Source: a filamentous cyanobacterium CCT1
GTDB lineage: Bacteria; Cyanobacteriota; Cyanobacteriia; Phormidesmidales; Phormidesmidaceae
Direction of reading: 5' to 3'
DNA length: 36,516 nucleotides
Assembly: GCA_003017855.1 (NCBI GenBank)
Contig: PYER01000030.1
Coordinates: 1 to 36,516 of the forward strand
Below, one piece after another: positions 1,373 through 36,516 of the stretch. The notes beneath the pieces were generated by a model, which saw only the letters and a program-made list of their open reading frames with translations, was not told the origin of the DNA and ran no database searches. How positions within the stretch are numbered: the first letter of the stretch is position 1; the number at the start of each line of letters is the position of its first letter. The translations under genes and the position numbers were made by a program.

Positions 1373-1523
1373 AGCGTTTGAGAGGCTCCGGTTGGGCTGG
1401 CGGCCCGAGCGCACAGCGGGGAGAGGAGCGTCTCGAACCGCTCGCTGCTGACGATTCATTTTGGCTGACCCTTTATTTTTGGGGTTTTCGGCCTCTGCCC
1501 ACCCCTCTAGCTGTCTTATCTTT

Positions 1524-4049
1524 ATGAAGGCAATTCAGGAATTTGTGGCTGCGGTTGAGCGCTGGTGGGCTGTCGAGCAGCAGACCACTAAGCCGATGAT
1601 CCATCGCCCTATGTTGGTACGGCGATCGTCGTCTCTAGAGCCCGTGCAGGCCAACGACAGGTCGACTGCATCCAGCTCAGCCCAGTCCGTGCGGTTGCGC
1701 CACAATCGACCGCAGCCCTGCCGCCCCCTGCGGCGACGCAAAAATATTCGTCACCCCCGGTTGGCCTTTGTGCTGACCACCCTGAGCCTGACGGCCATTC
1801 TAGGGCAGCGCTTTTACAATCAGCCGGGCTTGCAGGTAGGCAGCCTGGCTCCCAACACCATTTTTGCCCCCGCCGATACTCGGGTAGAAGATAAAGAAAC
1901 CACCGAAGAACGCCGTCGAGACGCCCGCAACGGTGCCCTGCAGGTATTGCGAATTGAGTCTGCTACCGACGAGGCCGTGCTGCGATCGCTGAGCAGCCTG
2001 ATGGCGGAGGTGGGCGATATTCGCCGCCAGGCCGGAACGGTCCCCTTTGTCGCCACCAGTATTTTGTCAACCCAGGTGCAGAGTTATCTGCGGCGCTCCG
2101 ACGACGCTACCTGGCTCAAGCTGCGCAGCCTGATCGACCCCCTGGCCAAAGACAATGCCCGCAATGAGCGAGTGGCGCTAGATACCCTGCTGCGCAACCA
2201 AACCATCACCCCCGATCAGCAGAAGGCCCTGGGCGAACTTTGGGCCTATGGTCAGCGCTCTAGCAGTCAGGAGCTGAGTCAGCTCCTAGACTCAGTAGAG
2301 CAGGCGCGGCAGGGCTACCAGGAAGCGATGGCCAACTTTACGCTGTTGGTCTCCCAGTCCGAGGGCGTTACAGAGTCTCCCCAGGTGCTGGAGCTATCGT
2401 TTCAGGACTGGGCCAACGCTCAGGTCGAAATTCGCAAGGCCGCAGAGCGCATGCTGGCCCAGGGCATTTCCTCAGGGCTACCCCCCGACGTGCTCGATCG
2501 CGCCGTCTATCTGCAGCTCAGAGATACGCTGCCCGGCTCAGTCGAGCCCTTTGGTCGCCAGCTGCTGCTCTCTACCCTAGAGCCCAACCTGATTGAAGAC
2601 AGCGATCGCACTCGCCTGCAGGCCGATATGGCCGCAGAGGCGGTCAAACCCGTCTTTGTCGAAGTGCAGGAGGGAGAACTCATTGTTGCCGCTGGTGACG
2701 TCATTACCCAGAGCCAGTTTGTGCTGCTCGACAGCTTTAATCTCAGCCAGCGCCGCTTTAACTACTGGGGTTTGGCTATGTTTGGGGGGCTGGTGGCTGG
2801 TGGGGTGGGCTTGTTTTTGCTGGTTGAGCGCTGGGTACCCCAGCGGCTGCGTCAGCAAGACTACCTGTTGCTAACGGCCATGGTGGTCAGCGCTGGGGTC
2901 ATGAAAATGGTTGGGGTGGCTGCCTACGGGCTGCCCGCCATTGGTCTGCTGGCCGGGAGTTTCTACGGCCCCGTGCTGGGGGGCACCCTGGTCGTGCTGG
3001 TGGCTGTACTGCTGCCAGTCGGAGCCACGGTGAGCGGTATTTCGTTTATGGCTGGGGCAGCTGGAGCCTTTGTGTGCAGCCTGCTGGCGGGCCGTATGCG
3101 ATCGCGCGAAGAGTTGGCCCTCCTCGGCGGTGGCGTAGGCCTCACCCAGGGGGTAGCCTACCTGCTGCTGACGCTGGTGGTCAGCCCAGTATCGCTGCTC
3201 TCTGCCTGGTCGGGTATGCTGACCGGGGCAGCCCTTCAGGGCATCTACGGCGTGATTTCCAGCATTGCCGCCCTGGGCCTGAGCCCCTACCTAGAGCACC
3301 TCTTTGATCTGGTGACCCCCATCCGTCTGGCCGAGCTGTCAAACCCCAACCGTCCTATGCTCAAGCGGTTGGCCTCAGAAGCGCCCGGCACATTTCAACA
3401 CACGGTCTTTGTATCGAGTCTGGCTGAAGCCGCCGCCCGTGCCCTGGGCTGCAATGTGGAGCTAGTACGTGCCGGTACCCTCTACCACGACATCGGTAAA
3501 ATGCACGACCCCCAGGGATTTATCGAAAACCAGATGGGTGGCCCCAACAAGCACGATGCCCTCAACGACCCCTGGCTCAGTGCCGAAATCATCAAAAAAC
3601 ACGTCACCGAGGGCATTGTGATGGCCCGTAAATGTCGTCTGCCCAAGGCCGTTCAGGCGTTTATCCCCGAGCACCAGGGCACAATGCTGATCAGCTATTT
3701 TTATCACCAGGCCGAGGAAATGGCTAAAGATGAACCAGCCCTGGCGGTGAAAGAAGCCGATTTTCGCTACGACGGCCCTATTCCACAGTCACCCGAAACC
3801 GGCATTGTCATGCTGGCCGACTCCTGCGAAGCGGCCCTGCGATCGCTCACTGATGCCACCCCCGATGAGGCCCTGGCTATGGTCAACCGCATTTTGCGCG
3901 CCCGCTGGAAAGATAATCAGCTCATAGAATCGGGCCTAACCCGTGACCATATGGCCCTGATTGCCGAAATTTTTGTGCAGGTGTGGCAGCAGTACAACCA
4001 CAAGCGCATTGCATACCCCAAGGCCGCGCTGGCTCCCAAGCTAAGCTAA
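1524..4049 (+). CDS. 7TMR-HD family phosphohydrolase (PgpH-type, predicted cyclic-di-AMP phosphodiesterase)
   Basis: An 841-residue membrane protein. After a basic cytoplasmic N-terminus there is one membrane segment (about residues 80-97), a long extracytoplasmic 7TMR-HDED domain (about 100-405), a block of about seven membrane segments (about 412-600), and a cytoplasmic HD domain. The HD motif is at H655-D656 in LYHDIGK, followed by KHVTEG, EHQGT and the late D in 'MLADSCEAALRS'. This order matches PgpH (YqfF), which hydrolyses the second messenger c-di-AMP in Firmicutes; the same activity in cyanobacteria is inferred from family membership. The frame is open from a TTG at 1461, but the ATG at 1524 (MKAIQEFVAAVERWW) resembles the usual start of cyanobacterial homologues and is preferred. 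No strong Shine-Dalgarno is visible at either. The gene ends 24 bp before a dispersed repeat. Confidence 0.92.
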   Translation: MKAIQEFVAAVERWWAVEQQTTKPMIHRPMLVRRSSSLEPVQANDRSTASSSAQSVRLRHNRPQPCRPLRRRKNIRHPRLAFVLTTLSLTAILGQRFYNQPGLQVGSLAPNTIFAPADTRVEDKETTEERRRDARNGALQVLRIESATDEAVLRSLSSLMAEVGDIRRQAGTVPFVATSILSTQVQSYLRRSDDATWLKLRSLIDPLAKDNARNERVALDTLLRNQTITPDQQKALGELWAYGQRSSSQELSQLLDSVEQARQGYQEAMANFTLLVSQSEGVTESPQVLELSFQDWANAQVEIRKAAERMLAQGISSGLPPDVLDRAVYLQLRDTLPGSVEPFGRQLLLSTLEPNLIEDSDRTRLQADMAAEAVKPVFVEVQEGELIVAAGDVITQSQFVLLDSFNLSQRRFNYWGLAMFGGLVAGGVGLFLLVERWVPQRLRQQDYLLLTAMVVSAGVMKMVGVAAYGLPAIGLLAGSFYGPVLGGTLVVLVAVLLPVGATVSGISFMAGAAGAFVCSLLAGRMRSREELALLGGGVGLTQGVAYLLLTLVVSPVSLLSAWSGMLTGAALQGIYGVISSIAALGLSPYLEHLFDLVTPIRLAELSNPNRPMLKRLASEAPGTFQHTVFVSSLAEAAARALGCNVELVRAGTLYHDIGKMHDPQGFIENQMGGPNKHDALNDPWLSAEIIKKHVTEGIVMARKCRLPKAVQAFIPEHQGTMLISYFYHQAEEMAKDEPALAVKEADFRYDGPIPQSPETGIVMLADSCEAALRSLTDATPDEALAMVNRILRARWKDNQLIESGLTRDHMALIAEIFVQVWQQYNHKRIAYPKAALAPKLS

Positions 4050-4938
4050 GCTGCAAGTCTCATACCAAATCCGAATCGCATAACCCCGATTCTCCAACAG
4101 GCGACTTGCATAGGGGCAAACGGTGTTTGCCCAGCCCAACCGGGGGCAGTCAAAGCGGATTCAGTATCAGAGCAGGCAGGCTCAAAAGCCCTGACTACTT
4201 CAGCCAAATCCCCAAGGGCTCTTTAGGTGTAGAGCCGTCACCATGGCGGTTAGAGAACTTCAGCGTTTTTAGAGCGATGGTTATTTGCCAGACAGTTTGG
4301 GAATTATGGATACACCTGTCGTAGCCCTTACGCGGCATCTTAACTTTACATTGGCAGAGCCTCGCGTAAGCATATACGACTATATGGATCCCAAGAATAA
4401 ATTTGACAAGCCGCAGAAAAACGCTGCTTTAATGCTTTTGTCGCCAATGATGTCGCTTGGTTTGAAGATACCGTTATCCTGCAGAATAGCTAATCTTTCT
4501 TCAAAATACTCAAAAAGCCCAACCACAAAACGAAGGCGTTAGGTGGTATTTTTACCAAATCATAAACTTATTACGAAGCTCCGGCAGCGCATCTGTAGGA
4601 TGATTTCACCGCCGGGGTAGACTTGGTGTAGTGATTTAGAAAGCATTGGTGAGTGATCTCTAAATTGGCTTTTGTACGACTGGTTTTTATACTCAGAAGG
4701 TAAAACACATGTATTTCTGCACCCCTAGCCCTAGATGTGGTTAGCTGCCCTTATACATTCACAGCTTACCTTTCTGCCCCCTACACTGCCCCTGTACAAT
4801 TGAACATCGCTAATTCACTCAACTGGTTTGACGCCCCTCAACCGGTAGCTTTGTTTGATAACCTTCGCCTAAAGCGATGTTGAACTGTATCTACGCCAAA
4901 TACCCTAGGTCATTTAGATAGATTGAGATAGGAGTTGT
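4050..4938. other. Gene-poor region carrying a dispersed repeat
   Basis: This 889-bp stretch is visibly richer in A and T than the flanking genes. It holds repeat copy A (4073-4172). An open frame at 4285-4542, whose best internal start is the ATG at 4309, encodes about 78 residues ending in KRRR; it has no recognisable motif and no clear ribosome binding site, and may be a decayed gene fragment. The last part before 4939 has a good ribosome binding site (TAGGAG) but no promoter I can assign with confidence. Confidence 0.6.
4073..4172 (+). repeat. Dispersed repeat, copy A (about 100 bp), with internal palindrome
   Basis: This stretch aligns over about 100 bp with the reverse complement of 32826-32924. 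Shared blocks include GAATCGCATAACCCC at one end, an AACAGGCG block, a central GGGGCAA...TTGCCC palindrome, AACCGGGGG, and GCGGATTCAGTATCA at the other end. The palindrome here has 8-bp arms (4114-4121 and 4125-4132) and a 3-nt loop. It begins 24 bp after the stop codon of the 7TM-HD gene. The lack of any open frame and the small size suggest a non-autonomous, MITE- or REP-like repeat. Confidence 0.8.
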
Positions 4939-32263: not shown

Positions 32264-32416
32264 AGCTGGCCGAGGGCGATTAGGTTGCCTCTTATTATAG
32301 AGAGGGTATAGAGACGGTAAAAGCGGCTCCTCCTAGGCAAATCGGGGAGAAGATGGCTAACATTGCTGTCAAAGTCTGTCAAAAGCCGAGATCGATTTGG
32401 GTGGGAGAATACGGAT

Positions 32417-32830
32417 ATGCGAACAATACAAAAGACACTGGCTGGAGCTTGTTTGTTGTTTGGGCTATCCATTTCGCTGCTGGCAACCGTTCAACTCGTC
32501 GACGCTGATGACGATTTAGAAGATCTAGCCGAAACCGGAGTTGCGCTAGTGCTGTTTGGTCTAGCGCCTACGGCCTTGGGCGGCTGGCTGGCATGGAATC
32601 TGCGCCACAGCAACCGGCAAACATTCCAGTCCCTGTCACTACAGCAGGAGCAGATGTTTCTACAGCTGCTGCAAAACCAGGCGGGAGACCTCACCATTAT
32701 TCAGTTTGCAGCGGCAGCACAGCTGCCGATCGAGCAGGCCAAGGCGTTTCTCGATCAAAAAGCTCAGCTGCTCAACGCGACCTTTGAAGTCAAAGATACA
32801 GGCGCGATCGTCTATCGCTTTCCGCTTTGA
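32417..32830 (+). CDS. Small two-helix membrane protein, cyanobacterial, function unknown
   Basis: A 137-residue protein. The ATG at 32417 has a GGGAG site upstream and is preferred over the longer frame from 32363. Two membrane segments are near residues 8-26 ('LAGACLLFGLSISLLATVQL') and 41-60 ('ETGVALVLFGLAPTALGGWL'), joined by an acidic DADDDLEDLAE loop. The C-terminal 70 residues ('LLQNQAGDLTIIQFAAAAQL' onward) look like a small soluble winged-helix-like domain. No known family name comes to mind. Its stop codon TGA (32828-32830) lies inside the dispersed repeat, so the repeat may have set the C-terminus. Confidence 0.7.
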   Translation: MRTIQKTLAGACLLFGLSISLLATVQLVDADDDLEDLAETGVALVLFGLAPTALGGWLAWNLRHSNRQTFQSLSLQQEQMFLQLLQNQAGDLTIIQFAAAAQLPIEQAKAFLDQKAQLLNATFEVKDTGAIVYRFPL

Positions 32831-32924
32831 TACTGAATCCGCCTTAGCTACCCCCGGTTAGGTAGGGGCAAGCGCCGCTTGCCCCTACCTAAGCCGCCTG
32901 TTTAAAGACGGGGTTATGCGATTC
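32826..32924 (-). repeat. Dispersed repeat, copy B (about 100 bp), with a 17-bp perfect hairpin
   Basis: This is the reverse-oriented partner of 4073-4172; the ends GATACTGAATCCGC and GGGGTTATGCGATTC match copy A in inverse. Its core (32858-32892) is a perfect palindrome with 17-bp arms around one base. It begins within the stop codon of the 32417 gene and ends 18 bp before the serS stop, so it lies between two convergent gene ends and could terminate both. Confidence 0.85.
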
Positions 32925-32941
32925 AAACTTGATGTCACACC

Positions 32942-34219
32942 CTAAAGGTACTCGCGCCCCAGGTAGGGTTGTAATACCTCCGGCACCCGTACCGAGCCAT
33001 TGGCTTCCTGGTAGTTTTCTAGAATGGCAGCCATCGTGCGGCCAATGGCCAGACCCGAACCATTCAGGGTGTGCACGTACTGAGTGCCCTTTTGCCCTGC
33101 CACTTTAAAGCGCACGTTGGCACGCCGGGCCTGAAAATCCAGACAGTTCGAGCAGCTCGAGATTTCGCGGTAGCTCTCAGAAGAGGGCATCCACACTTCT
33201 AAGTCGTAGGTTTTACAGCTTGAGAAGCCCAGATCGCCAGTACACAGTTCGAGCACCCGGTAGGGCAACTTAAGCTGTTGCAGAATGTCTTCGGCATCCT
33301 TCACCAATGCCTCTAGGGCGTCGAAGGAGCTGTCGGGGTGGACAAATTTGTACATTTCCACCTTGTTGAACTGGTGGAGTCGAATCAGGCCCCGGGTATC
33401 TTTGCCGTAGCTGCCCGCTTCGCGTCGAAAGCAGGGAGTGTAGGCACAGTAGTGAATGGGAAGCTGCTCATCGCTCAAAATTTCGTCGCGGTGCAGGTTG
33501 GTGAGGGGCACCTCGGCGGTGGGGGTGAGCCACAGGTCGTCGTTACGGCACTGAAAGCTCTCTTCAGCAAATTTGGGCAGCTGGCCCGAGGCGGTCAGCG
33601 CCGCCGAATTGACCAGGTAAGGAGGAATGACCTCGTAGTAGCCTGCTTTGGTATGGCGATCGAGCATGAAGGAAATCAGCGATCGCTCCAGTGCAGCCCC
33701 CACCCCCATCAGGGCCACGAAGCGGCTCTGGGCAATCTTTTCGGCGGCGCGCTTAAAGTCAAGAATGCCAAGGGTTTCGCCAATTTCCCAGTGGGGCTTG
33801 GCGGGCTGCTGAGGCAAATACTCATCGCCCCAGCGGCGCACCTCTACATTTTCGGTTTCGTCTTTGCCGACCGGAGTGGAGTCGCTGGGCAGGTTAGGCA
33901 GCGAGAGCAAAATGGCGTCGATCTCAGCCTTAATCGCTCGCTCCTGAGGTTCTAGGGTTTGCAGCTCGGCCTTGACCTGGTTGCCTTCGTCTTTGAGCGA
34001 GGTGACCTCAGGCCCATTAGGAGCGGCACCAGCTTTAATCGTCTGGCCGACCTGCTTACCGATCTCGTTGCTGCGGGCCTGCAGCTGCGATCGCGCCGTT
34101 TCTAGCTGACGCTGCTGCTGGTCTAGCTCTAGCAGCGGGGTCAAATCGTACTTGCCCCGTTTACCCAGAGCAGACTGCACCTGCTCTGGGTTTTCTCGTA
34201 TTTGCTTTAGATCCAGCAC
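32942..34219 (-). CDS. serS: Seryl-tRNA synthetase
   Basis: A 425-residue class II synthetase. The N-terminal coiled-coil arm (about residues 27-105, with many Gln, Glu and Lys) binds the long variable arm of tRNA-Ser. The catalytic core has motif 2 '[20 protein letters not shown]' and motif 3 [18 protein letters not shown]. The length is normal. It is a single gene between the dispersed repeat and the nfu gene, transcribed leftward. The start is ATG 34219 ([18 protein letters not shown]), as in most bacteria. Confidence 0.97.
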
Positions 34220-36189: not shown

Positions 36190-36516
36190 GGGTAGGGGCA
36201 AACAGCGTTTGCCCTTCACTGAACATTTGTTTCAAGTTACCGGTAGGGTGGGCAATGCCCACCATTCAACTCAGGTTTTCTCAGCTCAATATTTGGGCAG
36301 CGGCGCACAATTGGGGTCAAAGCCAGAACTGCCGCTGGGGCCATTTCGCTGGCCCCAGACCCCCGTCGACAAGGACGTTCCGTCGTCCTTGACCTCACGG
36401 AAAGGACTGGCCGATCATCGGTTTAAACCTTTGTTCTGCAAAGGAGCCTGTAAGCAACACTTTCCCCTCACCCTACGAGAAGCCGCTCCACACCTACACC
36501 TCCCCACCTCCCTCAC
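36190..36516. other. Palindrome-rich region at the right edge
   Basis: No gene is supported here. The 327 bp contain four inverted repeats: GGGCAAAC/GTTTGCCC (36196-36214), GGTGGGCA/TGCCCACC (36247-36263), CTGGGGCCA/TGGCCCCAG (36335-36358) and CAAGGACG/CGTCCTTG (36370-36391). The first is a third copy of the palindromic core seen in repeats A and B. The final 25 bases are a C-rich CTCCC pattern. The right edge shows no adapter. Confidence 0.65.
36335..36358 (+). terminator. Terminator-like hairpin near the right edge
   Basis: Perfect 9-bp arms CTGGGGCCA and TGGCCCCAG around a TTTCGC loop, without a T-run. It is 146 bp after the SDR stop, so its link to that gene is uncertain. Confidence 0.35.

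Follow-up and report, generated by a model that had tools for sequence, protein, structure and literature searches.

Two dispersed repeats in a filamentous cyanobacterium as probable members of an IS630-related MITE family

The stretch analysed here (referred to as the window; 36,516 bp, contig PYER01000030.1 of assembly GCA_003017855.1) is one contig of the 6.85-Mb draft genome of filamentous cyanobacterium CCT1, which comprises 546 contigs. It carries two similar repeats in opposite orientation, each just behind a gene, which raises the question of what these repeats are, how they came to be moved and why they stand where genes end. We consider it probable, at roughly 0.87, that both belong to a family of MITEs with a relationship to the IS630-type insertion sequences (IS) of the genus.

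The two window copies and their family

In agreement with the original prediction, the two copies have their ends and a central palindrome in common and differ in their interiors. The copies proposed at 4073-4172 and 32826-32924 proved to be real, while their boundaries had to be replaced by those in Table 1, which were set by alignment with copies elsewhere in the genome. The predicted closeness to stop codons also held, since the duplication of copy 1 begins 10 bp past the stop codon of the preceding gene and one duplication of copy 2 is itself a stop codon, the flanks of copy 2 on the element's strand being TGA and TCA with one mismatch. Orthologues of the gene ending at copy 2 were found at five loci in Nodosilinea spp., a Tildeniella MAG and 'filamentous cyanobacterium CCP3' (best identity 91%), which marks the host as Nodosilinea-like. 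An Rfam search of the window returned 0 matches.

Table 1. Positions of the repeats, their flanks and adjacent genes in the window
Feature	Position	Strand	Remark
Gene upstream of copy 1	1461-4049	+	7TM/HD-domain protein (Pfam 7TMR-HDED, 7TM-7TMR_HD, HD)
Target-site duplication, left, copy 1	4060-4062	.	TCA
MITE copy 1	4063-4166	+	Old subfamily A, 104 bp, ends TACCAAATCCG / CGGATTCAGTA
Central palindrome, copy 1	4111-4132	+	TAGGGGCAAACGGTGTTTGCCC
Target-site duplication, right, copy 1	4167-4169	.	TCA
Gene ending at copy 2	32363-32830	+	155 aa; stop codon is the copy 2 duplication; no Pfam/NCBIfam match
Target-site duplication, copy 2	32828-32830	.	TGA; stop codon of ORF 32363-32830
MITE copy 2	32831-32934	-	Old subfamily A, 104 bp; orthologous insertion in L116
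Central palindrome, copy 2	32863-32889	+	Perfect hairpin, longer than consensus
Other duplication, copy 2	32935-32937	.	One base off the stop codon
Seryl-tRNA synthetase gene	32942-34219	-	Convergent neighbour of copy 2

Several further observations were made in the window. The central hairpin of copy 2 is more perfect than that of the consensus and longer and more perfect than that of its L116 orthologue, and could have arisen by repair of an imperfect palindrome. A third palindrome resembling the MITE centre, TAGGGGCAAACAGCGTTTGCCC, stands at 36193-36214 without surrounding MITE ends, and a lone core similar to it also occurs in L190 near 2408. The segment of about 214 bp behind copy 1 (4170-4383) has no counterpart in congener G016.

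The predicted dispersed, non-autonomous family was confirmed genome-wide. With 40 of 151 first-look candidates scored, BLASTN of copy 1 against the 6.85-Mb genome yielded at least 44 matches, the best of them other than copy 1 itself at E = 6.8e-47; a covariance model, for which 150 of 2703 candidates were scored, yielded at least 123 at E ≤ 0.1. The terminal pattern TNATACYRAATCCG occurred 36 times in the genome, compared to 0 for a reversed control pattern. The MITEs have bodies of 102-104 bp with no coding capacity and carry short terminal inverted repeats, TACYRAATCCG, at both ends. Ends lacking a matching body led to subfamily B (102 bp), which shares those ends and has a related palindrome at its centre; a B copy used as query gave 42 matches in the own genome, three at 100% identity (the query's own place included) and others at 92-99%. 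From the 123 covariance-model matches, 88 copies were examined in 80 fetched stretches plus the window, with partial and weaker matches left out. Identical TNA trinucleotides flanked 26 of 27 copies in the young subfamily versus 25 of the 61 remaining copies, which places the window copies in an old layer and subfamily B in a recent one. The original description of the family as ageing is thus apt for the window subfamily and fails for the second, in which three 100% identical copies each occupy a different site.

Across 38 genomes, the B copy as a DNA query found a match in 20, all of them among the 23 of the genus (own included) and none among the 15 from other families, so that at this sensitivity the MITEs look genus-bound, while the IS type ranges more widely. 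A plasmid collection searched with both subfamilies gave no match.

Variation among the copies was also recorded. Longer bodies were present in 13 of the 88 own-genome copies (C276, C395, C47, C394, C144, C441, C456, C464, C409, two on C499, C173 and C72), mostly because a fixed position in the central palindrome carries about 24 additional bp. This insert is found in copies of subfamily A and in a single B-like body, all 10 of its matches within the fetched stretches lie inside MITEs, and it resembles the cyanobacterial small dispersed repeats (SDR5), which measure 24 nt. A deviant left end, with a GGCTATTTTNAGRGC-like motif before AAATCC rather than TNATACC, was seen in L005, L006, L009, L012, L018, L050, C188 and C456, and congener G016 has a piece of this motif where copy 1 sits in the window. 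In congener G011, copies are adjacent or clustered at some loci (L327, 2537-2644 and 2649-2746; L322, 2141-2631).

A TNA target-site duplication and a candidate transposase source

TNA stood on both sides of 64 of the 88 copies, with agreement of the middle base in 51 of them (TGA 18, TAA 13, TTA 11, TCA 9), leaving 37 copies without identical TNA duplications; in G011, identical duplications were present in only 14 of 45 copies. Because TA sits just inside each MITE end, a TA duplication had to be excluded. Empty sites in related strains, which the original prediction had named as a check, were found for C422 and for window copy 2. The C422 site is empty in congener G016, with a single TGA there, and window copy 2, minus its body and one duplication, gave an ungapped 400-bp alignment to L114 (81.5%) and L115 (80.5%), in which the stop codon TGA lies opposite TAA and TAG in the orthologues. 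L113 aligned to this site with 12 gaps, and L112 had unrelated sequence there. L116 (CCP3) has this insertion too, at the same stop codon, which makes copy 2 older than that split. For copy 1, no clean empty site was found, congener G016 having 37 bp compared to 328 bp in the window. Collectively, the empty sites and the agreement of the middle base support a 3-bp duplication of TNA, not TA.

Comparisons with paralogous sites included adverse cases. The flanks of C508 match another locus of the own genome over 120 bp with one gap and TTA at the site, C435 has a match over 60 bp with ACA, and the flanks of C178 match other own loci with CGA; the ACA and CGA indicate that such sites are not always TNA. 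In L227, an interrupted IS5-type transposase reads through in frame with one TCA, with no uninterrupted homologue among the loci. As a separate observation, the TGA duplication of C422:16625-16732 (L193) overlaps the start codon in ATGA, and the last base of the element, A, restores ATG after the insertion, whereby the start codon is rebuilt.

A candidate source of the transposase was located in congeners. Two end pairs in G011 lie 1147 bp apart with flanks TCA/TCA and TAA/TAA. Within the 1147-bp IS, two ORFs overlap, an A7 run lies where they do so, and we infer a programmed frameshift. ORF1 has HTH domains, and ORF2 matches transpos_IS630 (E = 4.4e-41) and also DDE_3; against NF033545 (cut-off 100 bits), ORF2 scored above the cut-off (141.3 bits) and ORF1 below it (71.5 bits). 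Six full-length copies with identical TNA flanks were found in four congeners, namely G011 (three), G009, G004 and G019, and a related end pair in G006 spans 1168 bp with unequal flanks (TCA/TAA). Across all comparisons of MITE and IS ends, 17-24 of 28 positions match, with 21-24 of 28 in the best comparison per MITE end; past the 11-bp repeat, the best for each MITE end was 12-14 of the next 17 positions. The 1147-bp IS630-family element of the congeners is therefore the probable transposase source of the MITEs. In the own 546-contig draft genome, a search with the transposase gave 0 matches at E ≤ 1e-15, and none of 14 IS630-model matches had TNA-flanked TACYRAATCC ends; ends common to the MITEs and an autonomous element were thus found in four congeners, and the IS was not found in the window's own genome.

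TNA duplications are usual for some IS5 groups (IS1031/IS427), and 3-bp duplications occur in Zator. That an IS5-type transposase of the IS1031/IS427 groups moves the family is nevertheless very improbable: although the duplication would fit and the genome has 24 DDE_Tnp_1 matches, including about ten near-identical copies, the IS5-type partner was rejected because none of the 24 loci carries a MITE-like end within one mismatch, and the ends, duplications and subterminal match all belong to an IS630-family IS. Also rejected as partner was a 1508-bp end pair with TTA/TTA flanks in G039 (L229), which holds only an ISAs1-type transposase fragment (ORF of 131 aa) among other sequence.

With an IS630-family partner, the transposase would bind the MITE ends in trans, cut the element out and insert it at a TNA trinucleotide, which would be duplicated. 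TNA covers TAA and TGA (TTA and TCA on the other strand), and an insertion could therefore hit a stop codon yet leave a stop codon.

To survey the flanks of related IS, inverted repeats that end in TA and are spaced as in an IS were sought in 69 loci (L252-L320); these loci came from 26 genus genomes (14 with a match), the IS630 search of the own genome and 291 class genomes (26 with a match). Identical TNA on both sides was present in 22 of the 69 loci, 11 in the genus and 11 from six other genera, a count that favours TNA in that several loci offered a choice of candidate end pairs and the TNA-flanked pair was counted where present. TNA on both sides with an unequal middle base was found in 7 of the 69, including the distant L275 and L278 (32-34% identical). 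For random TA pairs within these loci, the count was 14 of 19,817. By flank identity only, duplication of TNA instead of TA would thus extend to relatives from six other genera.

Placement behind genes

Gene positions (353 genes) came from a custom codon-usage script, run on sequences from which the elements had been removed, and not from an annotation. The 88 sites comprised 67 intergenic sites, 10 that coincide exactly with a stop codon, 5 inside genes and 6 at contig edges; omitting the last two classes left 77 sites, which were compared over 5000 draws with TNA sites from the non-coding parts of these stretches. Sites were in excess between convergent genes (35 vs. 13.7 expected), at stop codons (10 vs. 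2.3) and up to 30 bp from a gene end (16 vs. 6.3), and were depleted between divergent genes (6 vs. 24.3) and up to 100 bp from a gene start (1 vs. 20.4). The expected bias of placement towards gene ends and the expected further copies, distributed non-randomly relative to gene ends, were thereby observed. Among the 44 testable sites with intact duplications, 21 were between convergent genes (7.8 expected) and 5 at a stop codon (1.3 expected). A second genome, G011, showed the same direction more weakly; 45 of its 55 matches were taken, the 10 weakest being left out (several were the reverse reading of one place), and 43 of the 45 were testable, with 15 between convergent genes (7.5 expected, P = 0.004), 5 at a stop codon (1.6 expected, P = 0.02), 8 within 30 bp of a gene end (4.4 expected, P = 0.06) and 8 within 100 bp of a gene start (14.3 expected, P = 0.03).

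The excess exactly on stop codons in all three of these sets would suit active targeting of stop codons or of the 3' ends of genes by the transposase. Such targeting is unlikely, however, as stop codons were not significantly preferred over other TNA sites within 30 bp behind genes (10 of 26, P = 0.13), and the young subfamily had 1 of 23 sites at a stop codon with 0.7 expected. Five of the 10 stop-codon sites have unequal duplications (C497, C143, C441, C499 and window copy 2), and in these five it is the gene-side copy that has remained a stop codon, as would follow from its retention by selection. Selection would remove insertions near promoters and inside genes, and survivors would therefore gather behind genes. 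This loss of harmful insertions is a simpler cause than insertion preference, though these data fit either.

The original prediction had also suggested a selected role in transcription ending. In that case the element would be kept as a transcription terminator or a stabiliser of mRNA 3' ends, and its position behind genes would reflect positive use. The enrichment at gene 3' ends and the strong hairpins (shuffle z-scores of -1.5 to -6.2 over the six strands folded) are consistent with such a role. However, neither window copy has a terminator-like site, since no intrinsic terminator (a GC-rich stem and then a T run) was found in 3900-4400 or 32700-33100; promoter-like sites were likewise found at neither copy. 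Orientation to the nearest gene end was unbiased (40 same, 31 opposite, P = 0.34), compensatory changes were confined to 3 of the 11 consensus pairs, each time in a single sequence (covariation term -0.33), and the convergent bias is already present in young copies with intact duplications. The minimal covariation ruled out a selected RNA structure. Judged by intrinsic terminators, orientation bias and covariation, a termination role is not supported; we regard it as improbable, and purifying selection explains the placement better. A host function for the MITEs need not be assumed.

Relation to known elements

The unusual feature is the duplication of TNA instead of TA by an IS630-type element, TA duplication being treated as a hallmark of the IS630/Tc1/mariner group, to which the partner IS is likened by the match of its transposase to the IS630 model. 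ISY100 of this group is reported to insert almost only into TA, which is duplicated (34 of 39 products, PMC2170065), and known departures from TA are TAA/TAAA in Fot (PMC7386202), described for some eukaryotic relatives, and TATA in Sailor (PMC8533490), in contrast to the TNA with variable middle base of the window MITE family. Among the matches listed in a literature search on IS630 with TNA or 3-bp duplications, none named TNA for IS630, and among those listed for Nodosilinea repeats and transposases no title was about such an element. We see about even odds that an IS630-type lineage across several cyanobacterial genera swapped the hallmark TA for a 3-bp TNA, which would imply a changed strand-transfer stagger, and that its elements can enter stop codons and leave them intact, thereby gaining a harmless landing place at gene ends. 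If a bacterial branch really duplicates TNA, comparison of its transposase with that of ISY100 could reveal the determinants of cut spacing and target choice. The family further offers orthologous sites, filled or empty and dated, throughout a single genus, on which it could be asked whether targeting or selection accounts for the position behind genes.

Nezha and other cyanobacterial MITEs are, as cited in PMC10969869, likewise non-autonomous with inverted ends. A close parallel is the pneumococcal RUP, which, according to PMC3049150 and PMC2229807, is about 107 bp long, occurs in over 100 copies and is mobilised by IS630-Spn1. Like the window MITEs, it has IS630-family-like ends and is over-represented between convergent genes. 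The two differ in sequence, host phylum and GC content, and RUP is reported at TA target sites (PMC2229807), whereas the unit duplicated by the window family is TNA and not the TA dinucleotide. The excess of RUP between convergent genes was read by its authors (PMC3049150) as a sign of mobile, parasitic elements; this reading fits the window MITE family, which, by analogy, may work like pneumococcal RUP.
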